DNA of 64,000 nucleotides, from positions 1 to 64,000 of the forward strand of contig LGRX02025840.1 of assembly GCA_001247695.2 (NCBI GenBank), given 5' to 3'. The stretch's first letter is position 1. Each line of letters opens with the position of its first letter. The notes below the pieces were generated by a model, which saw only the letters and a list, made by a program, of their open reading frames with translations, ran no database searches and had not been told where the DNA came from. Source of the stretch: Cymbomonas tetramitiformis. Lineage: Eukaryota; Chlorophyta; Pyramimonadophyceae; Pyramimonadales; Pyramimonadaceae. Made by a program: the position numbers and the translations under genes. This document shows, in pieces, positions 11,523 to 49,180 of this stretch.

Positions 11523-11565
11523 GGGAGCGATCTACACTGAACATAACGGGAGGCTTGGAGCGCAA

Positions 11566-13760: not shown

Positions 13761-14279
13761 GCCGCCACAACAGCCGCAACATCGACCACAGCAGCCCCAT
13801 CAGCTGGCACCAGCCACCTCCGCGCTTCATGACTCAGGCGCGGATCTCTCATCGCTGCAGCACTTCATCAGCATCGGCGCCGCGGCCCTGCCGGACCCTC
13901 TGCAGGTACCCCTTGACAGCGGAGTTCAGCAGAACGTCTCGGGCGGGACCCAGCTCTTGGTGCGTCACCTTCCCGCGGTGGCAACAACCTCAGAAACTCG
14001 CCGGCGTCGGCGTTCCCGAAGGGCACGTCCTCGGGCCCTGCGACACATGGCAAACATCTTCCAGGCCCAAGCCACGCACCTGATCACTCTGACCCCGACT
14101 CCGGCACGGACATCAGCCGCACCAGCACGGGGACCAGAGGCAGCCGAAGCACGCAGGCACGGGCTGAGCGCAGGCGGAGGGCCGCCCACAGGTCCGGCTC
14201 CGACTCGGACGCGAGCAGCCGAAGTGAACACATTCGCAGAGAAGTCCTGGCGGCAGTACAGGCCCTGGACATCTCCGCG

Positions 14280-16694: not shown

Positions 16695-17034
16695 CTGGCC
16701 GGCGGCCAGCCCCAGACCCTGCCCTTCGAGGAAGTGAGGTCTTGCCCTGATGATCAGACCCTCTCCGCCCTGGAGAAGCGGCCAGAACCAGTGGAACCCC
16801 GACGCGCCCGAGGACGCAGAGACCCTTGGGGCCAACGTCCCCATCCCAAGAGCGTGGCCTTCACCTCTGGGACCCGCTTGCGACGCACCTACCGCTCAGC
16901 TGGTGCCCCATCGCCGCCGAGGGATGACTTGTCTAGCCACCCTCTTGCAGGAAGCACCCCCTTCGATGAGCCGTCACTACCTCTTGATGACGGCCCTGCT
17001 TATACACAAGCGAGGATCGAGGGTCGGAGGGGAC
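16695..17034 (+). pseudogene. Pol N-terminal remnant following the gag stop codon
   Basis: The reading frame of gag continues past its TGA for at least 110 codons (FEEVRSCPDDQTLSALEKRP, then a basic Arg-rich stretch) without another stop. That fits a gag-pol arrangement expressed by stop readthrough. It holds no protease or RT motif. Near 17035 it meets the RNase H tail in a different frame, which marks the internal deletion. Confidence 0.55.
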
Positions 17035-17056
17035 GGCGAGTCCCCCGGCATGGTAC

Positions 17057-31529: not shown

Positions 31530-34500
31530 TTATAGGTGCTCAGTCACAATTTTGTGGGCCATCATCTTGCTTAGGTACTCCCCGAACTTCTGGACGAGAC
31601 CATCCACGGCATTGCACCCGCATGCGATGCTTTGAAAGGTTTGTCGTAGCTGTATCTCGTCAGCTGCCTGGTGATAAAGACCTACCCCCGCATGTGTGTC
31701 GAGCAAGGCCATCCTGCTCATATTCTTTTTCAGTTCATCTTGACCAAATCCGATGGTATGGATCTGCATTCCGTTGCTGCGGTAAGCGTTGTAGATGTTT
31801 TGCATAATGGAGATTGCGACATTTGTATTTCCACCATCCATTCCATCGGACATGAATACCAATACAGGGGTGTAATGAGCAAACGCAGCTGCAGATTCGG
31901 ACAAGATGGCCTGCGCTTCTTGCATCCCTGCTGAGTAACATGTCCCTCCGCCATGATTGGTCACCGGCAATTGAGGTGCAGATATGAGCTTGCTGCACAC
32001 AAAGCGCCGCATTGCACCACTGCCAAACTCCACCGCAGACACAAGGTCACCATCGCCTTAGTCATTTCGCCGCTGGGCAATGAAGCGATTGTACGAGTTC
32101 CTCAGACTGCCCCATTTGTGACCGCTCATTGACCCCGAACCATCCAGCACGAACACAAAGTGGAATTGAGCGACGCTAGGTACGGAAGCATCAAACAGGT
32201 TCGTGACCTCTATCCGTCGGTTGTCAACGTCATACGCTAGCCGCAGCGTGCGCAGCATACGCCGGGTGCGTGGCTCATTGATGGTGCAAATGCACAGCTC
32301 AATGCCCGCGTCATGCAGCTGTCCCGCCACTTTCTCCGCCGTCAACCCTCCAGGATCCCCACCGGGATATGAGTCGCGCACGTCTGCTTCTGCAAGGCCG
32401 TGGCTGGGCGCATCCGTGATCAGCACCATGTACTTGATGCGGCCTCGCCAAACAGGAACGCTCACAGCTCGACTCATCGCGCCCAGCACGTCCTCAGGGA
32501 TGTCTTCTCCGCCCTGCGCGCGCAAACTGTGAATCCATTGAGTGAAGCTGTCTGCATCTTCAGTGAACGCGTAGTCCATGAACCTCTCGGCATCCGAAAT
32601 GTCCCTGAAGGCGGTGCACCCGAATCGAAACTCAATCGTGATGTCCGGGTATTCTTTCTGAATCAGGGGCAACATGCCACGCGTGATGCTGCCGATCTGC
32701 TCTTTGGCAGCTTGAATCCAGGGCCCCATGCTGCCGGTAACATCAAGCACAACCATGACGTCGCAGGACAGGCGGTCCACCCCCTGCTGCCCGGAAACAA
32801 GCTTCAGCTCGCGCTCTTGTCGAAGCTGCGCCCCGAGGTTTGGGAATGCCTGCTGCCGCTGCTCCAAGATCTCGTCCACGCTGAGGCCGTTCCCCACAAT
32901 CGCGGCGATGTGCTGCCACTTCTTCATGTGGGCACCGGGAATGATGGCCGCAGGGTCCGACACACTGTGGCTCTCGTACCTCATACGCAGCGCTTGGGGC
33001 ACGAAGGAGGGGTCCGCGGCGGCGACCCAGTGTTGGTAGCAGGAAGGAACGAAGCTGTCGTCGAGCCCGACGGCCATGCCCACGACCTCCACCTGCAGCT
33101 GCTCCGCATGGCGCAGGGCGTGCTTCAGCGTGCCCACAGTGCCGTACCCATCAGTGATCACGAACACCTTCTTGGGACCGCGCACGCCGCGCACCATCTC
33201 CACTGCACACCGCACCGCGTCGCCGTCCATGGACTGCGCCTGCTGCTGCGGGCACCTGCTAGCCGCCAGGGGCGACAGCGCGCTGAGCATCAGATGCTTG
33301 GTTGCGGCGTCGAAGGGCATCCCCAGGGTCTTCACGACCTGCACGTGGTCCGCAAAGACCGTCACGGCGAAGCTCACTCTGGCGCCGTGCAGCGCAGCGG
33401 TGAGGGTGACCAGCAGCTCGCAGGCGCTCTTTGCAAGTGCCCCGCGCATGGAAGGCGAGATGTCCAGCGTAAGGCACACTGCGTAATCACGCCGCCCCCC
33501 CGCGCTCTTCCGCGCAAAGATCTTCTTGTACGAAAAGTCGGTGCTGATCGCGCGGATAAGGCCAGGGAGGTGCAGGCTCGACCCGGCTGCTGCTGCGATC
33601 TTGCGCGTGAAGCGGTTGTACGGCAGCACCGCCTCCTCCAGTGCCTCCTGCATTTGCTCCACCTCCGCCACCAGCTTGGCTTCCGCGCAGCCCCAGAGGG
33701 ACTCCGCAGCAGCCGTGACCTCGGCAAGGGCCAGGCCGCCGCCGGCAGGGGCGCCACTGGAGCGCATGCTTCTGCCTTGGGTTTCAGTAGAAGTGCTGGC
33801 GGCGCCAATGAGCCTTGCATGCGCCTCCTCAGCGTCGGCCCGTGCGCGGTCGAGCAACGCCTCCATGTCCTGCAAGCTCCACGGGTCGTCCTCCGCCACG
33901 AGGAACGGGATTGGCTGCCCAGGGGGGCTGACGTCGATCAGTGTGGACGGCCTGGGGGCGCCAGCAGAGATGAGGTCAGTGAAGCGGCACTTGCGCACCA
34001 TATCGGGCAGTCGGAGAAGCTGCATCGCGGAGGGGAGCGGCTCTACTGTGGGGCATGTTAGGCAACTGTGCTGGTACGCCACACACGCCTTGTGAGGCGG
34101 GCCGGGGGTGACTGCCATGGAGATCGCCTTGGGCGCCCTGGGCGGCGGTCTTTCCTCGGAGGAGTCGCGGATGATCCGGGCAAGCTGCTTGGTCATGAGC
34201 GTGGCCAAGGCTGTGGGCAGCTGGTCCGCCTCTTCGGCATCCAGGACTTCGAAGAGGCCGTCGGTCACTTCACGCCACAGTCGGCTCACGTCATCCACAA
34301 GGCCCTGCATGCGTGCGTCCTTCACGTTCAGCACACACGCGGACGCGCCGTGTCGCCGCAACGTCTGCAGGTAGTCCTCCGGCACCCCCTCTTGCGTCAG
34401 GCCGTCCAGGATCATCAGCACCACCCGATGCCGCGGCGCAGCTGTTGCTCCTCCTCCTGATGTGGCACCTCCCCCGTCCGGTTGTGCCACCTCCCCCACA

Positions 34501-34836
34501 TCGCTCCACACTCTCGGCGCGATGTTCTGCAGCCCGGTGGCCGGGTAGGTGGCCTCGTCGTACGTGAGGCAGTCGAGGATGCGCTGCCCGAGGAGGAAGT
34601 CGAAGGGCTCGCCCAGCTCCTTCACCACCACCTGGCGGTTGCGGTCCCCGAAGCGACCGACCGCGAAGGGGCACTCCAGGCGCTGCAGGCTCTGCGTCAT
34701 CAGCGCCACCGCCTCCGCGACCGGCTTGCGCTTGGTCAGCATCGACCCGGAGTTATCCAGGAGCAGCAGCCACTCCACGGTGTGCGAGCGCTCCGTGCAC
34801 CGGTACAGCGCCTCGAACTGTCCGCGAAACTCTCGA
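31530..34836 (-). CDS. Giant gene, C-terminal block: four VWA domains (in-frame stop before the end)
   Basis: Host coding sequence begins just after the LINE tail and is open to a TAA at 32058-32060; the same frame then continues to 31530. VWA1 (EWLLLLDNSGSM, ~34750) is midasin-like. VWA2 has YAVCLTLDISPSM (~33470). VWA3 (VMVVLDVTGSMGPW, ~32740, with ITDAPSHG) resembles the VWA of VwkA-type alpha kinases. VWA4 has FVFVLDGSGSMSGH (~32130) and, beyond the TAA, GDGDLVSAVEFGSGAM, LVFMSDGMDGG and IHTIGFGQDEL. All four keep the MIDAS D-x-S/T-x-S metal site. The TAA falls between two conserved strands of VWA4, so it truncates that domain unless read through. It looks like a point nonsense mutation. 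Confidence 0.75.
32058..32060 (-). other. In-frame TAA inside VWA domain 4
   Basis: Upstream residues FIAQRRND and downstream GDGDLVSAVEFGSG are in the same frame with no gap, and both belong to one VWA fold. There is no GT-AG pair that would remove the stop. Long frames elsewhere in the window avoid TAA, so a reassigned code is not the explanation. Confidence 0.8.
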
Positions 34837-34861
34837 GAAAGAAAAAGAAAAAGAAAAAACC

Positions 34862-34931
34862 ACGCCCGTCGGGCGTATGAGTAAATTAATTTCCCCGGCC
34901 CTACTCTGGGCCGGACCGCCACAGGTGGCGG
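34862..34931 (-). promoter_or_regulatory. LINE 3'UTR hairpins
   Basis: Three perfect inverted repeats follow the stop codon (TAA at 34949-34947): CCGCCAC/GTGGCGG (34916-34931), CCGGCCC/GGGCCGG (34895-34914) and ACGCCC/GGGCGT (34862-34876), followed by the (TTTTTC)n tail. The last two are kept in the 75-bp copy at 59278-59352, where only the loop of the final hairpin differs. Such 3' structures are commonly what a LINE reverse transcriptase recognises to start copying; that role is inferred here. Confidence 0.75.
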
Positions 34932-34946
34932 CCTTAAAGGGACAAT

Positions 34947-37900
34947 TTACACTGGGTGGTTCTCATCTTTTTCCTTCTCTTGTTTCTCCTGTCTGAGCCT
35001 TCTGTATAGTTGGTAGGTGCTGTGAGCGTAGTTCACCGTCAGGTCGTGTATCCTTTGCAGTGCCTGTAAGGCTTCTTTTCTGTCGAGCCCGAGTTGCTCG
35101 AGTATGTCCCGGTTGTGTTTGTATACGGTGCCTGTCCTGCCCACTGCAAAGACATGGAGTTTGGCGCGGAATCCATGTCTACGTAGCAGTTGTAGTAGTG
35201 GTCCATATTTCATGTATTTTTCCAGGAGCTTGGGTCCCCATTTCTCGTCGTCGGTATGGGCCACCTCAATGAGGTGTAGGTTTTTGACTCTTGCTGGTGC
35301 TTCCTGTTGTGTACATTCCCATCCGTCTTCTAGGTCCTCCAGGCCCTCTATCATGACTATGTCTACAAAGCTCGGTATTGTGTCGGGTCCATCATTTCTG
35401 CCTGGGTTGTTCTTTCCGTCGTGTCTGCATTGCCCTCTGGTAAGTATGTAGTTTGGAAGTACTCTTGGCTTAATACCTGGGTCCCTCTTTTTTCCGGTGT
35501 AGGCAAGGACCTTGCATCCTCCTTTCCTATGGTGGTCAAGTATGTGTTTAAGTTCGTCTGCGTGGGCGTCCGCCCTGTCCGAGAACATTCCCCTCATTTG
35601 TGGGTTGTCGCACCCACCTAGGGCGTGCCCCACTCTCATGAGGAAGCCCTTCGCGTAATCCACCCCTTTGTGCCGACATCCTTCCAGGGTGCACCTTCCG
35701 CTTCCTCCGGCTGAGTTTTTCGCCGTCTCGTAGTCTTGTGCTGGCAGTATTCTCAGTCTGCATTTGAGTATTGTTTTCCGCGCCGCAAAGGTGGCTCGTT
35801 TCCAGAAGCCGTTCGCTATTTTGTGTAGCGGCATGTCTCCCTTGAGGTGCCCCATTGTTTCGTTCAGCCAGTTGTCGGTGGCCTTGTTCTCTTGGACCGG
35901 AGGGGCGTTCCTATTTTTCGTTCTGTTGTGTGTCATGTCGTGCTTTCGTTGCTTCCATCTTGTTCTGGGCATCGGGTCCTGCATCATCGCATGGACTCTG
36001 GATTCCTCCGTGACCCGGTCATGGTGAGCTTGTCTTACATTTGTCGGTCCCCCTTTAGGTGCTTCCCGCTGTTCAATGAGTTCATTGAGCATCTCAAAGG
36101 TTTCCTCATCATTGTGCTGCTTTTGGGTCGCCTCGAGTCTCTCCACGAGTTCGTTGAGTTCCTCAAACACTTCTTCCCTTTCACGGGGTTGGGGTGGTGT
36201 GTCTGCAGGTGTGGGGCCGCTTCCCCGGGTGGGGCCTGTTTCGCCTTCTGTCTCCCTTTGGTCTTGTTGCTTGTGTATGTCTCTTATAAGGAGCATCTCT
36301 TCATCCTCCTTTTGTTCCATCATAGCTTTTATTTGTCTGTCTTCTTCATCTCTGGTCTGGTCGGCCTGTTGCTGCTGGTTGGGCTTCGGGTCCCGCATCA
36401 TTGCTTGCTCCTCTTCATTTTGCTGTGCTTGGTCATGGTGTGCTTCCCACCTGAAAATGTGCTTCGTTTTCAGTTGGTGGGTCCATGTTGTGGGTTCTCC
36501 CTGAAGCTCGGTAGTTTTTGCCGTGAGCCTGCTGTTTCCTCGGGCTTGCTGTTCCCGTAGTAATGTGGTCACATATTTCTGGACGGCGAGCTTTCCTTGT
36601 AGCTCTCTGCTGCCCGAGTCTTCATCTGGTACCATGGGTTTGACTTGTATTGTTTCGTTATTATCCCACGCCTCCGTGAGGGTCCCTGTGGTGCATGCTT
36701 GCTTGGCTGCTTCGTCTGCTTTTTCGTTTCCCGCAATTCCTGTATGTGCCTTGACTTTCAGTAAAGAGACCTTGTGCCCCGCTGCTACCAACGCTTCAAT
36801 GTTGACCAGTATGGCATACAGGAGGTCTCTTTGCCGGTGGTGTTCCATGCTGTGGGGTTTTGTTCTCATGTTCTCCAATTGTCTAATGGAGTTGGCACTG
36901 TCCGTGCAAATGGTGAGTCCTTCGCCGCTTGGTGGCGGCGGGAGTGTGACTGCTTTCTGTATGGCGAGAAGCTCGGCTCTGTTCACCTCTTGGTCCTCAC
37001 CTTCCCATCTAATCATGTGGGCCTCCCCTTCTCCGGACCTGGGGTCCCATACCGCAGCTCCTGAGGCCCATTCTTTGCCTCCTTCCTCTGTTTCAATTTC
37101 TCTCTTGCTGCCGTCCGTGTATAGGTACGAGGTCGCTTCGTGTGCCCTTTGAGGGGGGGGGTATGTCAGTTGGGCTGGTGTGTCACTCGGGGGTAGGTTC
37201 CTGGGGTCCTCTGTCTGGTCTCTCGTTAGTTCCCATCTTCTCCCTTGGACCCCCGGCTCGTGCTCGGGCCAGAAGTCGGCGGGGTATCTGACAATTTTTG
37301 ACCTCGCCACTTTGTCCCATAGCATTTGGGCATCAGTCTGTCTTCTGAGTCTGGTGTGCGAGGTATTCGCTTCTATCACCTGTTGCACTGTGGGGGGGTG
37401 AATGTCCCATTTCCCTCCCCTGCTACCGGGGAGGAGTTCCCATTTGGCTGGTCCATCCTCCACATGGAGGTAGCCGTCCTCCCACCAGGTTTCAATTTCT
37501 GTCTGTACGTTGAGGCACTGGGGGCAGAGGTCGTTCCTTATGTGCGGCATTGTGTTGCACATTCTTCCCATTGCGTCCGTCATGTCCTTTGTTTTAATCT
37601 CCGGGAATTCATATCTCTGCCATGGTCTTGTGTCAATAATGCAGTCCGTACCGGGGGTGTGTCCTTTTTGGTTTGGTTCGTGCTTGTCATGCTGGTTCGC
37701 CTCCCTTGCCGGCTGTTTGGCGGTTGTGGTCGTGCGGACCTTGCTCTGCGGGCAGGTTGTGAGTGCTTGTCTTATGCAATCCGCAGCAACGTCTGGGTCC
37801 CCGCAGTGGGCCTGCCACCCCGCTTTGTTGGCAACAATCAGTACCCTGAGGTTCCAGTTGCACTGCTTCGCTTGCTGGTGTGTGGCACCCATCCAGTGGT

Positions 37901-40900
37901 CAGGGGGCAGGAATGTGAATTTGCCTTGCGGTATTTCAAGCAGTTCGTGCACTAGGTGCCCTGCATGTGCGTTGTAAAGTTTCCTATAGGGGGTTTTTTC
38001 ATATGTCGGGTATATTCCGACCCCGAATACCGGGTCCTGTGTGGTGGTGGCTGCAATGGCGAAGTCCAGTGCCTTCTTGAGGTCCTGTGGCGTGTATTCT
38101 GGGTTGAACTGGTAGGCCCCCAGTTTCATCCAGTTTGCAGTCCAGGCTGAGCCTCTGGCCCCGAACACCTTGTCTCTGTCATATTTGGCGTAGTAGTTCG
38201 TGGTGTTGTGGTGGACATTGAGGGGTGAGGCGAATAGTTCAGTGTTGAGTCCGAATGCCTGTTGTAGTGCTCTTTGCATCTGGGCGGGGAATGTCCAGTG
38301 GTTTTGTAGGTTCTTTTTCCTTTCCTCCTTTTCTTCTTTGCTTGAGTATCTAATAAGTAGGTGCCCTACTTCTTCCTCAAATGTTGAGACTTGTATTTTA
38401 TGGTCCTCCCACATCTCGGTGCGTAGCGTGCGTTGGTGCGGGGTTTGGTGGTGTGTGGTACCCACTGCTTGGGTGTACCTTTCATGTAGCCTGAGAAGCT
38501 TCTCTTTTGTAAGGGTGCCTATGTACTTCCCGTTCCTGTGGTAGCTGTGGGCGAGGTCCCCTTCCATCCGCAGTTGGCAGTGGTGTTCTCTGTTGTCCGC
38601 AATGTCCTGGCCCGGGTTGGTTTCCGTCGGGTCCAGGGTGAGGTTTCCCGCATGTAGTGTGGGCCAGGCCTGTCCCAGGTGGGGCCTACCGGCCAGTATC
38701 TCCCTGAGTCCTCTGGGGTGGGTTACTTGGGAGCCCCTGGCTCGTAGCCTTCTTGTCAGGGTTGGGAAGGTGGTCGCACTTTGGCCCCTTCGTTTTGCGA
38801 GTTTCAAGAAGTCGGTTATGGTTTCTCTTGTGCTCCACGAGTAGGAGTCTTCCCCTGTTGGGTGCCTCCACTGGGTTCTGTACTGTGTCACTTGGGAGTG
38901 CGGGTCCGTTGGGTCAATGAGTAGGGTCCTCATTGCCACAATTTCTTTCGGTTTGTCTATCGTTTGGCCCCTATCAAAGCTCTCTGCCTCCATTTTTCTC
39001 GCCATGGGGTCTACCTCATCTATCCACTTAGTTTGTGGGTTTTCGTGGAGGTCTTGTGGGACTTCCTGCTCTTCCCCCCACGTTTGACCGTTGGTTTCTG
39101 TCTCGTTAATTCTTGTGAGCGGGTGCAGGGAGAGTTGCCTATGAATCTCTTCTCTGGGGACCAGTTTCGCCTCCCATTCCGTCATTTTAGCCCGTATTTG
39201 TTCCGGGTTGAGGCGCGGGAGGTTGGTTCGCATCGTGTGGGGGTCCAACGGCCCCTCACTGGGCATGCTCCTGTATTGTTGCTTCAGCCGTCGGTTTGTG
39301 AGGCTGTCATAGAAGTCCCCTGGCTTCGCTATGTTCCTCGGCTGGGCTTCGCAAAGGTATGGGTATAGGTGTGCTAGGCCTTTTGCTATGGCACTGCGGT
39401 CTGCGCTGAGGGTTGCATCTGTGCATTGTTCCCTGACGTTTACCTGACTAATTGCGTGTTGGCCATCTCTGGTGGTAAGGAAGGCTAGGTCCGGGAAATG
39501 CGTGAATAGTTTGAGGCACGTCGTGAAATTTATCGCAGTCGGCGTGTCCTTGGGTACTGTGAGCTTGGCGGTTTGGTCTGTGTACATCGCCTGCCAGTCC
39601 GGAGGCGCCGGCAGGTCCCCATCCATCATTTTGCCAGCTTTTGTTTTTCTCGTGGTTCCTTCCATTTCTTTGTCAGACTTTCTTCTTGTCGCCCCTTTTA
39701 GTTGCTCCATTATCTTCGGTACTGGGGTCTGGAGTTGTTCGAGCATCCCTTCTGTTCCTTGGGGCGTAATGTTGTATCTGAGAAGGGCATTGAGTTTTCT
39801 TAGTGTGTTGTGTTTTGTCTGGTGTCCTCCCCAGAGTTTGTCAAGGTCTGTGCAATTCTTGCGTGTGGTGCAGTGGTATTCTATCAGTCCTCTGGTGGAC
39901 CTGCTGACGTGGGACATTCTGAGTCTTGACCTCAGGTTTATTTGCCTCCACGCAGGGCCCCGTACGGCTCCTCTGTCCTCCTCACTGTGCATGGCTTCCA
40001 GCAGTCCGCTCCAAATTGCCTGGGCGTAGACTGCCTGGAGTGGCACCATGCCCAATCCGAATCTTTCCTTTTCCTGTGTGGTGAAAATGTTCGGTGTTCC
40101 GTTGCGGGGTAGGCCTTGTATGTTCTTTGTGGCCCCACCTATTACTTTGTTGAAGTCATCTATTTCACCCGCGGTGTAGAGGCCTAAGTGTAGTCCATAT
40201 CTGAACTTTCCCAGTATTGCAGAGTGGAGGGAGTACTCTTTTTGGTCTGGGGTCAGCGGTGAGCGCAGTAGTGCTTGTATCCTGTGGTTCATTTCCTCCC
40301 TGGCAGCTTCCTTCTCCTTGTCCCATCTGCCTGTGAATGCCAGTAGTACTCCTAGGTACTTGTATGTGTCTTCCGGTTTGAGTATTTTGAAGTGGCTCAG
40401 CTCACCATCCACCCCAACCGTTTTGAGGTCCTTATGGAGTTGTTCTGGTATGGAGACCCCATTTTTTATGCCGGTTATGGCTGACTTGGTAAGGTTAATT
40501 TTGAGTTCACTCCATCGTGAGAATGTCTCTAGCTTGTGTAGCTGGGCTCGCATGTGGAAAATCGTGGGGCATAGTATGAGCAGGTCGTCGACGAATGCCC
40601 CTGCTGTCGTCCTGAGGGGGCCCAGTCTTTCCTGCTCGGCTGCGTGTTTGTGTTGGTACCCATGCTCCCCCACCTCCAGCCATCTTAACAGTGGTTCCTG
40701 GTATATTATGAAGAGGAGGGGGCTCATGCTGTCTCCTTGGAGGAGACCTCTTTGCACCTGGACCATTTCGTGAGAGGTTTCCCCCCCTACCCTGGTGTAC
40801 ATTGACATAGTGTCGTGACTTTGTGTACCTAGGACATCTCGCACTACTTGTGTAAGCTCATCAGGTATCCCAAGGTATTGCATTGTATGTAGCAGCTTGT

Positions 40901-43900
40901 TGTGGTCCACTGAGCCATATGCATTTTCGAAGTCAACATACAGGCCATGCAGTTCCCGTCCGGAGACATTTGCATCCTCTATTGCGTTGGTCACTCTCGT
41001 GAGTTGTCTGAGTGTGTTTCTTTTCTCTCTGGAGCCTTCCTGTGCCTGAGCCAGTATCCCCTGTGTTTCGCAGAACGTGGAGAGCATGTTTGCTATTTGC
41101 GAGGTGTATAGTTTGAATACTCCCTCCAGAAGGGCTATGGGCCTGTAGTTTTGCTGCAGGGTGACATCTCCTTTCTTGTGGTGAAAGCAGAATGTCCCTC
41201 TCTTCCAGGTGAGGGGGACGTGTTTGCTGTTCCACATCTCCAGCATGAGCGCATGCAAGGCATCGTGGAAGTCCTCTGGCATGTACTTGAGAATTTCGTT
41301 AGGGGTTCTGGTGGGGCCTGGTGCCTTGTTGTTGTTTAGGGTGTGTACTGCTTTGCTGTAGCCCTGTCTACTTATCGTGAGGTCCATTCCCTTGGGGTCC
41401 GGTCTTGGTGCCTTTACAAGTCGCTCCTTGTGGGCTGGGTCCTCCCATGGTGGGGTTGCTAGGTCGGGTAGACTCCGGTGTTCCATCCTGTATGGTGCCG
41501 AGTGGGCCATGTGGTCCACTAGTGCGTTTGCAATGTTCTTGTGGCCCACGGTTAGGTTGCCCTCCCTGTCCTGTAGGGCCTGTATATTCGCCGTGGGGGC
41601 ATGGCCTGTTTCTTGGGCCTTGGCATAAATCCTTTTGTGGTATCGTTTCTGGTTGTTCCAGTATTCTCTTACTGTTTTGTCATTATGCCTTTGTTTGGCT
41701 CGCTTCCAGTGCTGTTTGACCACTTTGTGTGCAGTCGACCTTTCTTTTTTGGCCTCCTCAGTGAGCCAAGAGACCCATTCCTTTGTGTCTGCATTGACCC
41801 TGTTTGTCGGGCCTTTTGTTTCTCCTTCCTTCAGGTGGCGGAGAGTGGTGTGTTCCGTGTGTGGGTTTCGTAGTTGTCGTTTGGTTTTCTTGTGCATCCG
41901 CATTTTGAGTATCGCGGCATCTCTTTCTTTTCTGTCCTTTTTGCTCATTAGTAGGTCCGTTGCCCCATGGGTGGAGGTTCTTCCAGTTATCACCGTCGGT
42001 AGTTCCTCGTCCTTCAGCGCGCAATTGTTTGCTCTGTTGAGTATACTCAGCACTGCCTCTCCTGCTCTGTCTATTGTGGCATGTGCCACCTGCTTGTTGC
42101 CTTCTTCCCTGCATCGGGTGGCTATCCCTATCATGTCCTTCAGCTTAGCCGTCCTGGCGTAGTCGTGTGTTCTGAGGAGGACGCTTTGGAGGGTTTCCCT
42201 GTGGGCTTTGCTCAGGGGCGTGTTCAGCTTCACTTGCCCTGGGTGGGGGTCTTGGTCCACGTATGGTTCATGGGTGTCTATGCTGTCTAGCCGAAGGGTC
42301 GTAAGGCTGACCATCTCGTGGTCACTCGTGTGGTGTTGAGTGAGGTGTGCGGTGCTTCCCCTCTCGTATTGGGCCCGTTTGTCCCTCGGTGCTAGCCATC
42401 TGTCAATGTTTCTGTTCTCTGCCCAGTTCAGCGTGGTATTAACCGTTGGACCTACATTATGGAGGTTCAACTCTTCCGCGAGCTTTTTCCATTGTCTGTC
42501 GGTTTTCGTTACCCTCTTTCCTGTGCTGGTGTTGCTTGCATTGAGGTCTCCTCCAACAATGACATGCTCGTCCGGTTTTTCCGCTGTTCTTCGGAACAGG
42601 TTGGCTGTGTACTTAAGTATCTTGTCTCTGGTTTTCCCCTCCTCTGCTCCCGGTGGGTTGTATATGCCCAGCACGTGGTACATTACTTCCCCGGGCAGGT
42701 GTAACACCACATGGAGTAGGTACCCCTCCAGGTGCCTCGCTGGGACCACATGGTGGTTGTGAGCGTGGCCGTAGGGGTTGCTAAGGAGTATGGCTACTCC
42801 TCCTTTCACTGGCTGCTCTGCAGCACTGCCTGCTTCTTTTGCCTCTGTTTTGGTGCCTATTGCAGTGTACTGCAGGTCTCTGAATTTCCTCATCACACTG
42901 TCGTGTGCATGCTTCACTTCCGTGAGCACCACCACTTGTAGACCCAGTTGGTTCTGGTGTCTCTTCCTGACTGCCTCTGCTAGGTCGAGGCAGGCGTCAC
43001 TTTGTCCCGCTATGTTCCATGTGAGCATGTGTAGGCGGTCTTCTCCTATCTCCCCCTTTTTTGGTTCCGTGAGGGGGGGCTGGTGTTTTCGGGGGTCGCT
43101 TGTTTCCAGTGCCTCCTGTTGCACGTCTTCGAATTTCTCCCATTGTGCAGTGGGTTCATCGCTTGTCTCTTCCCCCCCCTCGTCCGAGTGGGTTTCCATC
43201 GTTCCCTGCTCTCCGCGCGTGTGCTCATTGTCCCTTGCCTGGTTCATGGGGGTCAGTCTATGGAGCCATTTCCATAGTCCCTGTTGCTTTGTGTGTACTC
43301 TGTGCCCCCCCTCCTGGGTTCGTGGCGGTTGTGCCTCGGCTTGCGGGTTTGGGTTTGGGTCATCAGTGGGTTCCCTGGCCCCTGTCATTTGCTGACTGCC
43401 CTCTGGCGTTTGCTGTTGTTCTTCGGCGGCAGTTATTCTTTTCTTCACTGAGTGCTGTATCGACTTCCTGTAGGCATCCACCGCTGCTCTGTTGGTGGGT
43501 CCCCATTTGCTGACCGCCTCATTGAAGTGGGTGGGCCAGTGTCCCTCTGGGCATGTTTCCTGGAAGTGCATCCATGCTTTGGTGGCCATCAGGGCCCATA
43601 CCCCACAGCTGTAGTGGTCTTTTGCGCTTTGGTTGCCTACGTTCATTAGTTCCACTGTTACTTGTCTGCTTAGTTTCCCTGCGAGGTGTTCTGCCCAGTT
43701 GGTCATTTCCATTGTAAGTCTCTTTGTGTTGTGTAGGGTTGCTTTAGTTTTACCATTCAAGGAATCATATATCCAGAGCTTAAGTTTGTCGTTTGCTTTG
43801 TCTGGTCCCGCCAGCACTACTCTCCAGTGCTTGCCATCGCATACAGGTATGCAGAAGCTCTGGAGGTTCCTGAGTAGTTGTAGTGCCTTCGTAGTATGTG

Positions 43901-46418
43901 GCTCATTGGTGTTCCCTGGTTTCAGTGTTTCCCTCATTGAGGCTACCACCAGAGGAGGCAATGGGTCATTTTCATATAGTGTGTGGGCATGTTGCATTTG
44001 GAACATGTTCAGTCGGCCCTTCTTTTCGAACAGTCCTTTTGAGGTGGTGTTGTGTGGGTGCGTCCCTGCGTGGTCCTGGCTTCCCCCTCCTGCCATGCTC
44101 CGCTTGCAGCGGCTGGCTCTTTGTCTCATTCTCTGCTCAACTCCCCTCATCAGCAGCTTGCGCTTGGTTGGGGTGCCCTCTGGTATTGCAGTTACCGCAT
44201 ATTCCGGTTTCCTTGTCCTAATGAGCATGGGTTTACCATTTCGGTAAATTATCCTGAGCAGTTTCTGGCCGGGAGGTGGTTGTGCTCTCCCTTTCGTTGC
44301 ATTTCTCGCTCTGGTCCATTTCCTCCTGCACCTTCTTTTACATGTTATGCTGTTGGGTTCAATGTTGTTCGTTTTCTTCGTGCGGCCATGCGCTTTTCTT
44401 CTTGGCAATGTGGTAAGTAACAGCATGGTGAGTATTGGGGTCAGGGCGAGTGCGGCGTTCTGCAGGGGCCTGGCAATGTCCTGGTTACTCCTTACCAGTC
44501 GGGTGGGTGGTAGTGTTGCTGTTGGTCTGTGGGGGTGTTCACATTGAGTTGCTGCTGCTCCGCACTTCGTGCAGCCGTGTAGTCTATTTTTTGGGTTTAT
44601 GGTTACAGCGTTACATTGCCCTAAATCGCCTGTTGTAACACCCCTAAAGGTATTCCCAGAGTGAGTTGTGTTTTTAGTTCGTTGTCTCATGGCTGTGCCA
44701 AAATTTTTTTGAGTTTCCACATGTTTTCCAGTTTTTCTGATTTTAACGTAGAGCATTTTTAGGAATTCGCTTGTGGTCGACTTTTGGAATTTTGCTCTCA
44801 TATTTTGTGTGCATTGCCCTTCCGCCCCCATGAGTCGTCCCCTAGAGTTTTTTGGCTTCCTTCCCAGTAGTTTGGGCTGTGTAAGGTCATTTGTGTCCTT
44901 TTTGCTTAGGGTTATAATAGGGTTGTTTGTGTTATTCAGGCATTCATGGGTTAGGCGGGTGGGTGGTAATGCTACTGTCAGCTGGTGGGGGCAATTACAT
45001 TGGGTTGCTGCTGCTCTGCCTTTCCCGTGTCTATGCATTCCAATTGTTGGGTTTATGGTTACAGCGTTGCATTGCCCTAAATGACTTGCTGTAACTCCCC
45101 TAACGGTATTTCCAAGGTGGGCCGTGTTTTTGTTTTGTTGTCCCGTGGTGGTGCAAAAAATTTTCCGGGTTTCAGTATGTTCTCCGGTTTTTCCGAATTT
45201 AACGTAGAGCATTTTTAGGAATTCGCTTGTGGTCGACCATTGGAATTTTGCTCCTGTATTTTGTGTATACAGTCCTTCCACCCCCCTGAGTCTTCCCCCG
45301 AGGTTTTTCAGTTTTATTCCCATTATTTTGGGTTGTGCACGGTCATTTGTATCTTTTTTGCTTAGGGTTACCGTAGGGTTGTTCGTATTAGGACAGTTAT
45401 GTTTTAGCCAGGTGGGCGGTAATGTTGCCCTCCCTCGGCTGAAATGTGTGGGTAGGACCTTTGCCATCACTGGCGTGTATCCGCACCTGCTGTCCCTTTG
45501 GTGCTTTCTGTTTCGCTTGCCACTGGCATGAGGGTGTGAGTGTCGCGAGGTATCATCATTCCAGTTATTTAGTGTGTCGTCAAGGTGAACCCAAGAGTGG
45601 TGTGGACTCTTTGTCTGCCGGGGTGTTGCTATTAGTTTTCGGTTAGTTTGTAGTAAGTTATTATGGTGAATTGACATTTTCCATTCGAACGGTGTGTGGT
45701 TAATGCTTGGTCCCCCGGCCTGGTCAATGTGGGAAATGCTCGCTGGGTGCATATATTCACAGCATTTGTCAGTGGCAGTTGCAATGGTAGGCAGAGACAA
45801 CATAAATATTACTTTGAGTTGTAAGTTCAGGCTAACTTTACTAGGTCTGCTTCCTATATCCCTTCTCTTGCTATGAGTCCCTGCAGCTGGCTCTGTTATG
45901 CCACCCTGTCTTGCAGGCCTGCTGCTTCCTTGGTTCTCTGCAGCACAGATGTTATTTGTTAGTGCAGTGGGGGTGTGGCTCCACTGGCAGGGTGTGGTGG
46001 GTTGTGATGTGAGTTGGTCAGCAGGGCAGGGGGTTGTATGATTACTCACCTTTCTAGTGAGTGGCGGGGCAGATCGGGGGCTCTCAGATTGTGCCCCCTC
46101 CTGTGCTGTCGCCTGTGCACCCCCTTGTGCCCTCCGCTTCGCCGGTGGCTCGGCGTCGACCGCCCGGCCCCCCGTGTTGGTTGCTGGTCTCTTTGGCGGG
46201 GGCTGGTTCCTCTTGGGGTCGGGTTTCTTTCCAGTGTAGGGGATGCCCCGGTATTGATCGTCCTCCTCTGCAGTCTGTGGTGATTTTTTCGTGAAGTGAA
46301 GCGGATGATCAGGTGCCTGGTGTTTTCCTTCTCCTGTCACACGGCATTTGCGGCGATCACAACTGGGAGCACAGCTTCTGCCCAGGCTGCGCCGGGTGGG
46401 TATGACTGATTCAAGCAC
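34947..46418 (-). CDS. LINE polyprotein: C48 protease, APE endonuclease, RT, PCIF1-like methyltransferase, RNase H
   Basis: 3823 codons without a stop; the true start is probably inside 46336. Residues ~330-640 hold two 152-residue tandem repeats. At ~800-945 is a C48/Ulp1-like cysteine protease: KHWRVVL (His ~862), WIYDSL (Asp ~883), GNQ and HYSCGVWAL (Cys ~937). At ~1125-1370 is an APE-type endonuclease: LTWNIAG, LTEVK, GIYNPPG, VVGGDLNASN, NIDRW, TSDHEMV. At ~1700-2000 is the RT: QQNYRPIALLEGVFKLY, LYVDFENAYGSVDH, RGLLQGDSMSPLLF, AFVDDLLIL. At ~2710-2870 is a PCIF1-like domain: FGLNTELFASPLN, GAYQFNPEY (2772-2775), LRVLIVANKAGW. At ~3095-3240 is RNase H: YTDGSK, NRAELLAIQ, CTDSANSI, KVKAHTGIAGNEKADEAAK. 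A Cys/His cluster near 3576 (CTLEGCRH...GHALGGC) may bind zinc. Domain calls are from motifs only. Confidence 0.88.
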   Translation of the reverse strand: MLESVIPTRRSLGRSCAPSCDRRKCRVTGEGKHQAPDHPLHFTKKSPQTAEEDDQYRGIPYTGKKPDPKRNQPPPKRPATNTGGRAVDAEPPAKRRAQGGAQATAQEGAQSESPRSAPPLTRKVSNHTTPCPADQLTSQPTTPCQWSHTPTALTNNICAAENQGSSRPARQGGITEPAAGTHSKRRDIGSRPSKVSLNLQLKVIFMLSLPTIATATDKCCEYMHPASISHIDQAGGPSINHTPFEWKMSIHHNNLLQTNRKLIATPRQTKSPHHSWVHLDDTLNNWNDDTSRHSHPHASGKRNRKHQRDSRCGYTPVMAKVLPTHFSRGRATLPPTWLKHNCPNTNNPTVTLSKKDTNDRAQPKIMGIKLKNLGGRLRGVEGLYTQNTGAKFQWSTTSEFLKMLYVKFGKTGEHTETRKIFCTTTGQQNKNTAHLGNTVRGVTASHLGQCNAVTINPTIGMHRHGKGRAAATQCNCPHQLTVALPPTRLTHECLNNTNNPIITLSKKDTNDLTQPKLLGRKPKNSRGRLMGAEGQCTQNMRAKFQKSTTSEFLKMLYVKIRKTGKHVETQKNFGTAMRQRTKNTTHSGNTFRGVTTGDLGQCNAVTINPKNRLHGCTKCGAAATQCEHPHRPTATLPPTRLVRSNQDIARPLQNAALALTPILTMLLLTTLPRRKAHGRTKKTNNIEPNSITCKRRCRRKWTRARNATKGRAQPPPGQKLLRIIYRNGKPMLIRTRKPEYAVTAIPEGTPTKRKLLMRGVEQRMRQRASRCKRSMAGGGSQDHAGTHPHNTTSKGLFEKKGRLNMFQMQHAHTLYENDPLPPLVVASMRETLKPGNTNEPHTTKALQLLRNLQSFCIPVCDGKHWRVVLAGPDKANDKLKLWIYDSLNGKTKATLHNTKRLTMEMTNWAEHLAGKLSRQVTVELMNVGNQSAKDHYSCGVWALMATKAWMHFQETCPEGHWPTHFNEAVSKWGPTNRAAVDAYRKSIQHSVKKRITAAEEQQQTPEGSQQMTGAREPTDDPNPNPQAEAQPPRTQEGGHRVHTKQQGLWKWLHRLTPMNQARDNEHTRGEQGTMETHSDEGGEETSDEPTAQWEKFEDVQQEALETSDPRKHQPPLTEPKKGEIGEDRLHMLTWNIAGQSDACLDLAEAVRKRHQNQLGLQVVVLTEVKHAHDSVMRKFRDLQYTAIGTKTEAKEAGSAAEQPVKGGVAILLSNPYGHAHNHHVVPARHLEGYLLHVVLHLPGEVMYHVLGIYNPPGAEEGKTRDKILKYTANLFRRTAEKPDEHVIVGGDLNASNTSTGKRVTKTDRQWKKLAEELNLHNVGPTVNTTLNWAENRNIDRWLAPRDKRAQYERGSTAHLTQHHTSDHEMVSLTTLRLDSIDTHEPYVDQDPHPGQVKLNTPLSKAHRETLQSVLLRTHDYARTAKLKDMIGIATRCREEGNKQVAHATIDRAGEAVLSILNRANNCALKDEELPTVITGRTSTHGATDLLMSKKDRKERDAAILKMRMHKKTKRQLRNPHTEHTTLRHLKEGETKGPTNRVNADTKEWVSWLTEEAKKERSTAHKVVKQHWKRAKQRHNDKTVREYWNNQKRYHKRIYAKAQETGHAPTANIQALQDREGNLTVGHKNIANALVDHMAHSAPYRMEHRSLPDLATPPWEDPAHKERLVKAPRPDPKGMDLTISRQGYSKAVHTLNNNKAPGPTRTPNEILKYMPEDFHDALHALMLEMWNSKHVPLTWKRGTFCFHHKKGDVTLQQNYRPIALLEGVFKLYTSQIANMLSTFCETQGILAQAQEGSREKRNTLRQLTRVTNAIEDANVSGRELHGLYVDFENAYGSVDHNKLLHTMQYLGIPDELTQVVRDVLGTQSHDTMSMYTRVGGETSHEMVQVQRGLLQGDSMSPLLFIIYQEPLLRWLEVGEHGYQHKHAAEQERLGPLRTTAGAFVDDLLILCPTIFHMRAQLHKLETFSRWSELKINLTKSAITGIKNGVSIPEQLHKDLKTVGVDGELSHFKILKPEDTYKYLGVLLAFTGRWDKEKEAAREEMNHRIQALLRSPLTPDQKEYSLHSAILGKFRYGLHLGLYTAGEIDDFNKVIGGATKNIQGLPRNGTPNIFTTQEKERFGLGMVPLQAVYAQAIWSGLLEAMHSEEDRGAVRGPAWRQINLRSRLRMSHVSRSTRGLIEYHCTTRKNCTDLDKLWGGHQTKHNTLRKLNALLRYNITPQGTEGMLEQLQTPVPKIMEQLKGATRRKSDKEMEGTTRKTKAGKMMDGDLPAPPDWQAMYTDQTAKLTVPKDTPTAINFTTCLKLFTHFPDLAFLTTRDGQHAISQVNVREQCTDATLSADRSAIAKGLAHLYPYLCEAQPRNIAKPGDFYDSLTNRRLKQQYRSMPSEGPLDPHTMRTNLPRLNPEQIRAKMTEWEAKLVPREEIHRQLSLHPLTRINETETNGQTWGEEQEVPQDLHENPQTKWIDEVDPMARKMEAESFDRGQTIDKPKEIVAMRTLLIDPTDPHSQVTQYRTQWRHPTGEDSYSWSTRETITDFLKLAKRRGQSATTFPTLTRRLRARGSQVTHPRGLREILAGRPHLGQAWPTLHAGNLTLDPTETNPGQDIADNREHHCQLRMEGDLAHSYHRNGKYIGTLTKEKLLRLHERYTQAVGTTHHQTPHQRTLRTEMWEDHKIQVSTFEEEVGHLLIRYSSKEEKEERKKNLQNHWTFPAQMQRALQQAFGLNTELFASPLNVHHNTTNYYAKYDRDKVFGARGSAWTANWMKLGAYQFNPEYTPQDLKKALDFAIAATTTQDPVFGVGIYPTYEKTPYRKLYNAHAGHLVHELLEIPQGKFTFLPPDHWMGATHQQAKQCNWNLRVLIVANKAGWQAHCGDPDVAADCIRQALTTCPQSKVRTTTTAKQPAREANQHDKHEPNQKGHTPGTDCIIDTRPWQRYEFPEIKTKDMTDAMGRMCNTMPHIRNDLCPQCLNVQTEIETWWEDGYLHVEDGPAKWELLPGSRGGKWDIHPPTVQQVIEANTSHTRLRRQTDAQMLWDKVARSKIVRYPADFWPEHEPGVQGRRWELTRDQTEDPRNLPPSDTPAQLTYPPPQRAHEATSYLYTDGSKREIETEEGGKEWASGAAVWDPRSGEGEAHMIRWEGEDQEVNRAELLAIQKAVTLPPPPSGEGLTICTDSANSIRQLENMRTKPHSMEHHRQRDLLYAILVNIEALVAAGHKVSLLKVKAHTGIAGNEKADEAAKQACTTGTLTEAWDNNETIQVKPMVPDEDSGSRELQGKLAVQKYVTTLLREQQARGNSRLTAKTTELQGEPTTWTHQLKTKHIFRWEAHHDQAQQNEEEQAMMRDPKPNQQQQADQTRDEEDRQIKAMMEQKEDEEMLLIRDIHKQQDQRETEGETGPTRGSGPTPADTPPQPREREEVFEELNELVERLEATQKQHNDEETFEMLNELIEQREAPKGGPTNVRQAHHDRVTEESRVHAMMQDPMPRTRWKQRKHDMTHNRTKNRNAPPVQENKATDNWLNETMGHLKGDMPLHKIANGFWKRATFAARKTILKCRLRILPAQDYETAKNSAGGSGRCTLEGCRHKGVDYAKGFLMRVGHALGGCDNPQMRGMFSDRADAHADELKHILDHHRKGGCKVLAYTGKKRDPGIKPRVLPNYILTRGQCRHDGKNNPGRNDGPDTIPSFVDIVMIEGLEDLEDGWECTQQEAPARVKNLHLIEVAHTDDEKWGPKLLEKYMKYGPLLQLLRRHGFRAKLHVFAVGRTGTVYKHNRDILEQLGLDRKEALQALQRIHDLTVNYAHSTYQLYRRLRQEKQEKEKDENHPV
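44505..45425 (-). repeat. Two 456-bp tandem repeats inside the LINE frame
   Basis: The landmark ACGTAGAGCATTTTTAGGAA recurs at 44746 and 45202, exactly 456 bp (152 codons) apart, so the repeat is frame-neutral. Each unit encodes STTSEFLKMLYVK, LGQCNAVTINP, AAATQC and TLSKKDTND-type segments, and a third partial unit lies upstream. Conserved Cys and His residues (GQCN, H, TQC, PH) suggest a repeated metal-binding nucleic-acid-binding module; this is inference. Confidence 0.8.
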
Positions 46419-48565
46419 GCCACAACGGCATCTGCCGCCGAGCCGAGCATTCCAGATCGCTGGAGCAGAGTGGGCTTCTGCTGCTCTGCGTGCGCGCTCT
46501 GGTCTGGCCGCAGCTCATCGCCCGCTTCGTTGCAGCCCTCCACGGTGAGGTGCAGACAGTGCGGAGCGGTTTCTGCCAGCAGCCCCTCCGGTCCGACCGT
46601 GTATTCCCGTCGCTGAGCCACCTGCGCCTCGACGTATGCCGATTGCCTATTGGCCCCATCGCCAACCGTCACCTCGATCAGAACCGTGAGCTCGCTCTCA
46701 GCAGGAAGCTTCATGTGGCTGCTGCTATACTTCACCCGTGATGCGCCTTCTGCAGCATCTTCGCGCAGCAATGCCACTCGGCGCACCCCCTGCTTCTTGG
46801 TCGATATCTTCACCGAGATGTCTCGCTTGCTCGGGTTGTGCACGCGCAGCGTGTGTTTCAGGACGGTCCCTGCGCGTCCACGGCCGAGATGCACGGAGCC
46901 CACGGGCGTGACGCGCATCGGGAGCGTCCAGGCCTGGGCGACGACCGTGTAGGCGAGGCGCCACGTGGGCTGCGAGACGCTGTTCGTTGCGAACTCCAGG
47001 TACCCGCGACACTCGTTGAGATGGGCAAGCTGAAGTCGCACCCGCAGCTGAGTGCTCTTGCCAGGCTTGATCGTGACGCCACCCACCGGAGCTCCCTTCA
47101 ATAATGCCACGTGGCTGCCCACAGGGCGGAACTCCAGTGGCAATGTGCCTGGGTTCGTGACCTCGAAGTCTGCGTCGACGCTGGGACGGCTGCCCAGGCA
47201 GCTTGCCAGCTGGTCGTGCTTGAGCGTGAACCGCAGAGCCTTCTGCTTGCAGCGTGCCAACGGCTCCCCCGTGCGCACCGTCATGTGCAGAGTGACCACG
47301 CACTCCCGGTTGATCGTCAGCGGCAGTGCGAACCTCGTCTGATCCTCGGGGGCTGCCGGCAGCTCAGAGGCACCGCGGTGGGTGTAGGTACACCTGACGG
47401 CTGCATGGCAACCCGGGGGAAGTGAGCCCCGGACGGGGGACACGGCCAATGGAGGCGTGTCGTCCACCTTGAAACGGAAGGGTGCCTCCCCCTCGTTGTA
47501 GAGATGGAACGTGATGGACACCTGTTGCCCGGGCTGCGCGCTCGGGAAGGGGGGGAGGGACGCCGCTCCGAGGCTGTTTGGCGCTGCATCCCGGCCATCC
47601 TCGTCCCGGATCTGGAACCGGGGCCGGCGAAAGGTTGCGCGGATATCGAAGCGCTGCAGGTGAGAGGCGCTCCCCATGGCAAGCCACAGGGCGCCCGCCA
47701 GATCGCCCGCCTCGCCAGGGGTTGTCAGGGTGACCTCAAAGACCCCCTCCCCGGCCGAGGAGCACGCGGGTGGGAGGACCAGCTGACGTGGGTTGATGCC
47801 CACCGTCGACGCCCACCGACCGGGGAAGGCGCCGAGCTGGGCCTTGACGAGAACTGGCGCGTCCGTCCGATTCTGTAGGCGGAGAGGGATCTTGACGGCA
47901 TCCCTCTGCTGCAGGGCGCGGAAGGGTGTCAGCACCACGCCGAAGTCCAGTGTGGCGGGTGAGTAGTCGACGTGGAGAGCCTGTATGGATGCCGCGAGAA
48001 CCACGTCCGCAAGCTTCGGGGTGGAGCTGGCATGCCCGGTCCTCGCCGCGTTGACCTCCAGGCGCAGCGCCTGCCGCAGTACACCGTGCGCCACGGAGGA
48101 GTCCACTGCGCACTCCACACGAGCGGTTGCCTTCGCGGCCAGGTGGACGCAGGTGGGCTCCACCCGGATCGCATCGAGTGGGGCGCCCCCGCCAGTGCGA
48201 AGCGCCACAGCAATGGCTTGCTCGGTGTGGTTGGCGATGCAGAGGTGCGCGCAGTGCGTGCCGCTGCCGTGCAGCAGCTTGCCGAGGTTCACGAGAACCG
48301 TCGTCGGAGCCGCGCACACCGCACGCTGCGAGGAGCAATGGAACACGGTGACCCAGCTCTCCGGTGGCGGGCCTCCACCCAGGAGCGCCACCCCTGGGGC
48401 GTCCAGCAGGTTGTCGGGGATGTGCATAGGCCGCCCTGCGGATTGCTGCAGCGCCGCCGCCTCCTTCATGAGCTGCAGCCGTCTGACCTTGCGTGCGCGG
48501 ATGTGACATGCAGCGCGCAGAGTGCTCTGCGCCAGGGTCCGGTGGAAGCCGCGGCACGGGCCAAT
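46337..48565 (-). CDS. Giant gene, ASH/HYDIN-like beta-sandwich exon
   Basis: A 3' splice site (GTGCTGCGCAG, AG at 48567-48566) opens a frame that runs to a TGA at the LINE boundary, about 743 codons. The first ~35 residues are helical and basic (FHRTLAQSTLRAACHIRARK). The rest repeats beta-sandwich signatures of the ASH/MSP/HYDIN kind: SPATLDFGVVLTPF, FHLYNEGEAPFRFKVDD, DADFEVTNPGTLPLEF, and VGSVHLGRGRAGTVLKHTLR followed by VHNPSKRDISVKI. Such domains typically mediate microtubule, cilium or centrosome contacts, or simply act as spacers. The C-terminus (LNQSYPPGAAWAEAVLPVVI) stops where the LINE starts, so the exon may be cut by it or spliced on to the VWA exon. The joining phase upstream is unresolved. 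Confidence 0.65.
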   Translation of the reverse strand: MGPCRGFHRTLAQSTLRAACHIRARKVRRLQLMKEAAALQQSAGRPMHIPDNLLDAPGVALLGGGPPPESWVTVFHCSSQRAVCAAPTTVLVNLGKLLHGSGTHCAHLCIANHTEQAIAVALRTGGGAPLDAIRVEPTCVHLAAKATARVECAVDSSVAHGVLRQALRLEVNAARTGHASSTPKLADVVLAASIQALHVDYSPATLDFGVVLTPFRALQQRDAVKIPLRLQNRTDAPVLVKAQLGAFPGRWASTVGINPRQLVLPPACSSAGEGVFEVTLTTPGEAGDLAGALWLAMGSASHLQRFDIRATFRRPRFQIRDEDGRDAAPNSLGAASLPPFPSAQPGQQVSITFHLYNEGEAPFRFKVDDTPPLAVSPVRGSLPPGCHAAVRCTYTHRGASELPAAPEDQTRFALPLTINRECVVTLHMTVRTGEPLARCKQKALRFTLKHDQLASCLGSRPSVDADFEVTNPGTLPLEFRPVGSHVALLKGAPVGGVTIKPGKSTQLRVRLQLAHLNECRGYLEFATNSVSQPTWRLAYTVVAQAWTLPMRVTPVGSVHLGRGRAGTVLKHTLRVHNPSKRDISVKISTKKQGVRRVALLREDAAEGASRVKYSSSHMKLPAESELTVLIEVTVGDGANRQSAYVEAQVAQRREYTVGPEGLLAETAPHCLHLTVEGCNEAGDELRPDQSAHAEQQKPTLLQRSGMLGSAADAVVACLNQSYPPGAAWAEAVLPVVIAANAV

Positions 48566-48639
48566 CTGCGCAGCACAGCAAAATCCGGCTCGAAGTCAGC
48601 CGCCTTCGCTCACGTGTTTGTCTTGATCAGATGGCCGGT

Positions 48640-49180
48640 ACCTGGTGGTACACACGGATGGGTACATACGGATGGGTGCATACGGATGGGTGCATATGGA
48701 TAGATACATACGGAGGGGTACACACGGATGGGTACACACGGACGGGTACATACGGATGGTACATACGGAGGTGCATACGGAGGGGTACATACGGATGGAT
48801 ACACGGACGGATGTATACGGAGGTACATACGGAGGGTGCATACGGATGGGTACATACGGATGGGTACACACGGATGGGTACATACGGATGGGTACATACG
48901 GATGGGTACATACGGATGGGTACATACGGATGGGTACACAGTACATACGGATGGGTACATACGGATGGTACATACGGATGGGTACATACGGATGGGGATG
49001 GGTACATACGGATGGGTACATACGGATGGGTACATACGGATGGGTACACACGGATGGGTACATACGGATGGGTACATACGGATGGGTACATACGGATGGG
49101 TACGGATGGGTACATACGGATGGGTACATACGGATGGGTACACACGGATGGGTACATACGGATGGGTACACGCTGAACCA
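48640..49180. repeat. 14-bp minisatellite in an intron of the giant gene
   Basis: About 38 units of GTACATACGGATGG with variants (CACACGG, GTGCATACGG, short units) run without interruption. Plus and minus frames are open across it and give repeated YIRMGTYGWVHTDG-like peptides, which are not proteins. It lies between two coding blocks, so it is most likely intronic. Confidence 0.9.

Follow-up and report, generated by a model that had tools for sequence, protein, structure and literature searches.

A probable Dualen/RandI-type LINE of Cymbomonas tetramitiformis whose single giant protein includes a PCIF1-type methyltransferase-like domain

LINEs of the Dualen/RandI group are stated to be marked by the combination of an APE-type endonuclease with a restriction-like endonuclease (RLE) (PMC4640811, PMC3636483), and LINEs with APE only are thought to descend from such a two-endonuclease state (PMC4640811). 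Members of the group, which are known from Chlamydomonas and its relatives and have been called comparatively obscure (PMC8226300), are described by their two endonucleases and RNase H. The 3′ ends of all 8 green algal RandI families carry repeats which are not poly(A) but (ATT)n or (CTATTT)n (PMC3747384). In NeSL elements and Utopia-1_TSP, an Ulp1-like protease is situated upstream of the reverse transcriptase (RT) and an RLE downstream; these elements are described as RLE-only and mostly target-specific (PMC4640811).

Retroelements that carry a methylase are few, and those described, SymbioLINE-Dnmt, SymbioDIRS-Dnmt3 and Dam-like DIRS elements, have C5-cytosine or Dam-like enzymes; purifying selection was reported for the Dnmt-bearing ones (PMC5890265). 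PCIF1 (CAPAM), a cap-adenosine N6 methyltransferase, was placed in eukaryotes only by a study of N6-adenosine methylases whose text contains no word starting with 'transpos' or 'retro' (PMC8868631). The enzyme is described as preferring single-stranded RNA to RNA/DNA hybrids, and these to DNA, and its usual inactive mutants have changes in the N and F of the NPPF loop (PMC10544176).

The element described here was found in a window of 64,000 nucleotides (contig LGRX02025840.1), which is the whole stretch of DNA analysed. With its APE, its putative RLE (recognized by motifs) and its RNase H, it has the dual-endonuclease Dualen/RandI LINEs as its nearest known group, and it resembles them also in that its 3′ repeat is not poly(A) but a variable T-rich tail with C's. 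It differs from Dualen, as the latter is described in citing papers, in the PCIF1-type domain located between RT and RNase H, and in its length of 14.1 kb with a single frame of 4667 codons. The order of protease-like region, RT and putative RLE is that of NeSL and Utopia-1_TSP, but an APE is present as well, the protease region scores below threshold and no common target is apparent. It joins a nucleic-acid methyltransferase to a retroelement as the Dnmt- and Dam-bearing elements do, but the domain is of PCIF1 type. The likeness to PCIF1 lies in the part of the methyltransferase core that surrounds FASPLN and the catalytic loop; the differences are NPEY in place of NPPF, no WW found, a helical domain that went undetected and the location inside a retroelement protein.

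Taken together, the data indicate that this is probably an autonomous, recently active non-LTR retrotransposon of Dualen/RandI type, with a single giant protein, one domain of which stems from the PCIF1 family, whose members are RNA adenine-N6 methyltransferases. In comparison with LINEs as described in the literature cited, it is unusual in this PCIF1-type domain and in its size. An earlier sequence-only reading had been unaware of a described element with exactly this set of domains; RNase H is already known in Dualen/RandI, and so is a cysteine protease, which the Dualen paper of Kojima and Fujiwara in 2005 is said to have reported.

Layout of the element and its protein

An open frame of 3855 codons, counted from stop to stop, occupies positions 34947-46514 of the minus strand, and a plus-strand reading of the same interval contains many stops. 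The frame that the sequence-only reading had placed at 34947..46418 does exist; its strand, left unstated, is the minus strand, its start lies in host DNA and the copy is 5′-truncated. The features are as follows.

34835..46339, minus strand: 5′-truncated LINE copy of 11505 bp; similarity to full-length copies from 46339; tail ends at 34835 (last base ambiguous by one)
34950..46514, minus strand: open frame, 3855 codons; residues 1-58 are flanking DNA; stop at 34947-34949
44956..45390, minus strand: unit 1 of a tandem pair, repeats of roughly 440-470 bp inside the frame, units about 79% identical
44500..44971, minus strand: unit 2 of the tandem pair, pairing with 44956..45390
43455..43937, minus strand: Ulp1/C48-like protease region; H896, D917, C970; Pfam C48 E 0.0011, below cut-off
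42315..43025, minus strand: APE-type endonuclease; PF03372 (Exo_endo_phos), 1.3e-11, residues 1164-1383
40155..41444, minus strand: reverse transcriptase; PF00078 (RVT_1), 4.4e-26, residues 1780-2056; FVDD at 40584-40595
37815..38402, minus strand: PCIF1-type methyltransferase-like domain, PF12237; NPEY at 38094-38105, FASPLN at 38217-38234
36693..37127, minus strand: RNase H; PF00075, 8.6e-15, residues 3130-3274
35610..35765, minus strand: KxRxxxLP helix motif and C-x4-C-x16-H-x4-C zinc knuckle, from a motif scan
35055..35609, minus strand: putative restriction-like endonuclease region; motif set VDIV, IEV and KYMKY (a KX2KY motif)
34835..34946, minus strand: 3′ UTR, hairpins predicted; tail T-rich, (TTTTTC)n-like

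Since similarity to the full-length copies begins only at 46339, the window copy is 5′-truncated and its first 58 codons are flanking DNA. The tandem pair at 44500-45390 recurs in all five of the other copies that were compared over this part.

Pfam identified Exo_endo_phos, RVT_1, PCIF1_WW and RNase_H, in this order from the N- to the C-terminus, on the 3855-codon frame. Four of the five domains proposed earlier are thereby recovered, the protease reaching only a sub-threshold C48 match (19.3 bits versus a cut-off of 20.7). The proposed order of protease-like region, APE, RT, PCIF1-type domain and RNase H in one LINE polyprotein was borne out in many copies. A zinc knuckle and a putative RLE at the C-terminus, recognized by motifs, had been overlooked.

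For the protease, the HMM check that had been suggested was run on the isolated segment 860-1040. Peptidase_C48 was the top Pfam match, just under its cut-off, and LupA, given with the Pfam result as another ubiquitin-type protease family, was second; the whole protein had no C48 match at E 1. C48 was matched at E 0.1 or better in 14 of 16 copies (best E 0.0011) and LupA in all 16. A His, an Asp and a Cys occur in order, and H896, D917 and C970 are invariant across the 16 aligned sequences. Weak matches of the region to poz1 in the PDB (E 0.0087; 0.28 with a profile) were rejected, as they leave out the His/Asp stretch.

APE motifs were present in all 19 aligned rows that cover them. Among solved chains, the RT matched R2 best (E 5.9e-19, 71 bits; best L1, 37.9 bits), as would be expected if the element is early-branching.

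The last 272 residues contain KCRLRILP (residue 3584), the knuckle (3608-3635), VDIV (3717), IEV (3749) and KYMKY (3766). In RLE-bearing LINEs, a KXRINALP helix, a CX2-3CX7-8HX4C knuckle and a catalytic KX2KY are described (PMC5678591); the first spacings of the present knuckle are longer than those of the published one. The combined pattern, which was written after the sequence had been seen and allows a wider knuckle spacing than published, occurred in 0 of 200,000 shuffles, and in 17 when the helix motif was left out. No PDB sequence matched the region, the best Pfam match was DUF5975 (E 0.032, below its cut-off) and structures predicted for the RLE and PCIF1-like regions could not be used (mean pLDDT 41.7 and 32.1, respectively) because the alignments contain near-identical copies only. 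The assignment as a putative RLE thus rests on motifs and on selection (pN/pS 0.13). The KYMKY of the window copy (35205-35219, minus strand) reads KYTKY in the 19 other covering rows; both fit KX2KY.

The N-terminal 870 aa of a full-length copy had no Pfam match above cut-off (best DUF4404, E 0.016) and none in the PDB at E 1. In NCBIfam the protease, RLE, PCIF1-like and N-terminal parts were unmatched, and RNase H scored below the cut-offs of the RNase HI models that it matched.

The PCIF1-type domain

In the search with the whole frame, PCIF1_WW was matched at residues 2705-2843 (E 2.7e-16), and the isolated segment matched PF12237 at 1.8e-17, with 63.9 bits against a cut-off of 31.1. The methyltransferase assignment made earlier is therefore sound at the level of family, while activity is a further step, given NPEY for NPPF. 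Two PCIF1 crystal sequences were matched (E 8.6e-4 and 8.7e-3) over the methyltransferase core only, where the match begins, and the PCIF1 helical domain went undetected. No separate WW family was present among the Pfam matches up to E 1, the 'WW' being part of the name of PF12237. In the alignment to PCIF1, the cofactor-side FASPLN and FG[AS]RG are kept; at the NPPF loop the N is retained, the second P is replaced by E and the F by Y.

Copies lacking the protease or the methyltransferase were sought, as had been proposed, and none was seen among the rows examined: NPEY and LFASPLN occur in 19 of 19 covering rows, and the protease C-G motif in 16 of 16, each out of 21. Changes in the PCIF1-like domain, counted against the window frame with two duplicate loci dropped, comprised 31 synonymous and 13 nonsynonymous ones (pN/pS 0.12), with a P of 1.1e-11 versus equal rates in a test that ignores transition bias and the shared ancestry of changes.

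It is not far from an even chance, if somewhat below it, that the domain is without catalytic activity and serves as a structural or RNA-binding module in an otherwise ordinary Dualen LINE. NPEY stands in for NPPF in every covering copy, the match to the solved structure spans only the methyltransferase core, and Drosophila Pcif1 is termed catalytic-dead in the title of a paper. The low pN/pS speaks against such a module, although a binding module would be constrained too, and so do the retained cofactor-side LFASPLN and FGARG. With the N kept, but the F changed to Y and the second P to E, methylation by the domain is plausible rather than established.

An appreciable, though lesser, possibility is that known Dualen/RandI elements already carry such a domain unannotated, in which case the composition would be ordinary for the group. 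The comparative obscurity of Dualen LINEs is consistent with this. On the other side, descriptions of Dualen name only two endonucleases and RNase H, and no PCIF1-type LINE was found among the papers listed from the openly licensed PMC literature, as judged from titles and the beginnings of abstracts.

Copies, selection and insertion

The genome (851.7 Mb in 25,745 contigs) was searched with a query of 1838 aa extending from APE to RNase H. At least 26 copies, the best-scored of 5417 first-look candidates and including that of the window, are 98-100% identical over the 1838 aa; as scoring was limited to the best candidates, 26 is a lower bound. The frame is stop-free over the query in 25 of them, and in six of the 26 an open frame extends over 4667-4668 codons. 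The search for full-length relatives in the same genome that had been suggested thus yielded a copy of 14.1 kb with a 4667-codon frame. The C17131 copy measures 14,139 bp; its 3′ UTR is 87 bp long and its tail 26 bp. Not all copies are intact: a stop occurs in three of 21 rows, in one of them close to the very end, and several rows differ by insertions or a deletion.

The first ATG in the full-length frame is codon 102. The 5′ end is identical in three full-length copies, two further copies start alike, and the common sequence opens with CACTTC. Rfam gave no match at gathering score in the window and none up to E 1 at the full-length 5′ end, where no known ribozyme is therefore seen, and the first 160 nt of a full-length copy did not fold better than shuffles. 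The 5′ UTR of full-length copies (L040, 6113-6457, minus strand) contains upstream ATGs, one of them in a strong context (ACCATGG) outside the main frame, and two stretches resembling a branch point plus CAG.

Median pairwise divergence was 1.2%, and the maximum 2.2%, over a 5514-bp core compared among 18 copies (that of the window counted, two duplicate loci left out). Two copies, L008 and L009, are identical over this core, yet their 3′ flanks differ. The family is apparently young and was active until recently.

It is apparent that each catalytic domain is under purifying selection. The pN/pS values were 0.20 for the protease, 0.08 for APE, 0.19 for the APE-RT linker, 0.12 for RT, 0.20 for the post-RT part, 0.25 for residues 2931-3120, 0.07 for RNase H and 0.28 for residues 3281-3540, that given above for the RLE including the knuckle. 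From changes present in at least two copies, the values were 0.06 for RT and 0.10 for the PCIF1-like domain. P values versus equal rates, subject to the same two simplifications, were 3.8e-14 for RT, 3.6e-15 for RLE and 3.5e-4 for the protease. Less constrained parts were residues 60-155 (0.33), 691-860 (0.39), the repeat-bearing 156-690 (0.53) and 1021-1160 (0.69); the last showed no clear constraint (P 0.27).

The T/N-rich, repeat-bearing stretch of about residues 156-690 could be regarded as an intron that separates two exons, given its weaker constraint and the occurrence of AAAGGTGAGT at codon 968 of the open frame of a full-length copy. This is improbable: the stretch is open throughout (0 stops versus 33 and 38 in the other frames), its P versus equal rates is 0.0039 (transition bias ignored), and retrotransposition of spliced RNA would remove an intron. 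That the long frame is an artefact of assembly, or of the composition of a T-poor strand with few stops (T is 0.159 in the repeat-bearing stretch of the sense strand), can be dismissed, since a full-length copy has 0 stops in 4667 codons versus 201 and 174 for the two remaining sense frames (totals of three pieces), so that the frame is not due to chance, it bears a selection signal and the 26 matches are spread over 25 contigs.

A variable T-rich tail with C's is present at all 19 of the fetched 3′ ends and in the window, followed by unlike DNA; two pairs of loci among the 19 share 3′ flanks. In the 18 distinct 3′ flanks (window included, two repeats dropped), no common target sequence was found, apart from a base at the ill-defined tail boundary. 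Six full-length copies were tested for target-site duplications. For one, C25734, the fetched DNA did not show the 5′ end; among the five with both ends read, four have duplications of 14, 13, 11 and 11 bp and one, C2104, has none. In these four copies the element follows the direct repeat immediately or after one base; three of them have one extra base (T, A and A) between the repeat and the initial C. As a control, a shared 12-mer was observed in 21 of 20,000 random draws with a like-sized frame and close pairs skipped, a figure that applies to 12-mers only. No target-site duplication was found for the window copy. The duplications of 11-14 bp and the 5′ truncation of the window copy are traits of target-primed reverse transcription (TPRT).

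The window copy is flanked by a vWA frame and a HYDIN/MSP-type Ig frame (32058-34946 and 46337-48595, minus strand), all on the same strand. The two host frames are in register if the 3′ flank begins at 34835 or 34838. The LINE may thus interrupt one host gene, a weak suggestion because the tail boundary is ambiguous. A 14-bp minisatellite of 38 copies (48647-49170) adjoins the host frame.

Elsewhere in the window, a 499-aa frame at 16991-18490 (plus strand) matches the Dam adenine methyltransferase family (PF05869, 2.3e-8), beside a 925-aa frame at 13917-16694 (plus strand) with a sub-threshold zinc knuckle; together these are perhaps part of another element, unrelated to the LINE, that carries an adenine methylase. 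The frame at 8523-11531 (minus strand), with an aspartyl protease and RVT_1, is that of an LTR-type retroelement.

No relatives were detected in IMG/VR with the PCIF1-like or RT part or with two degenerate PCIF1 patterns, nor in GTDB contigs with the RT part, nor among phages by megablast; these scans, with exact peptide words or fixed spacings and collections that do not hold eukaryotic genomes as such, are weak for distant relatives.

Proposed mechanism and significance

For the Dualen/RandI-type retrotransposon favoured here, the following course may be envisaged. The protein would bind the hairpin 3′ end of its own element RNA; APE or RLE would nick the target, and RT would copy the RNA by TPRT. 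The other endonuclease or RNase H could help to cleave the second strand and to remove the template. The Ulp1-like domain might cut the protein of roughly 4.5 thousand residues into working pieces, or strip SUMO-type modifiers. The most likely target of the PCIF1-like domain would be the element RNA or the RNA/DNA hybrid of integration, which it would methylate at adenine or, should NPEY be inactive, would bind.

A role next to the cap appears less likely, because the 5′ end starts with C rather than A and the search revealed neither a WW domain nor a helical cap-binding one. A transcript that starts at this C would have a base other than A next to the cap, contrary to self-methylation in the manner of PCIF1, and a substrate in the element RNA or the TPRT hybrid, or a binding role, is favoured; the extra base before the C in three of the four duplication-bearing copies (A twice, T once) allows for another start. 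More tentatively, and on balance doubtful, the LINE may have captured a PCIF1-family adenine-N6 methyltransferase with which it marks its own RNA, or the RNA/DNA hybrid during TPRT, and so shields new copies from host silencing.

Should the RLE be confirmed, the element would be a living example of the APE and RLE state, in a 14.1-kb single-frame element. A PCIF1-type domain in a LINE protein would tie RNA adenine methylation directly to retrotransposition, a link that is testable thanks to the many young copies.
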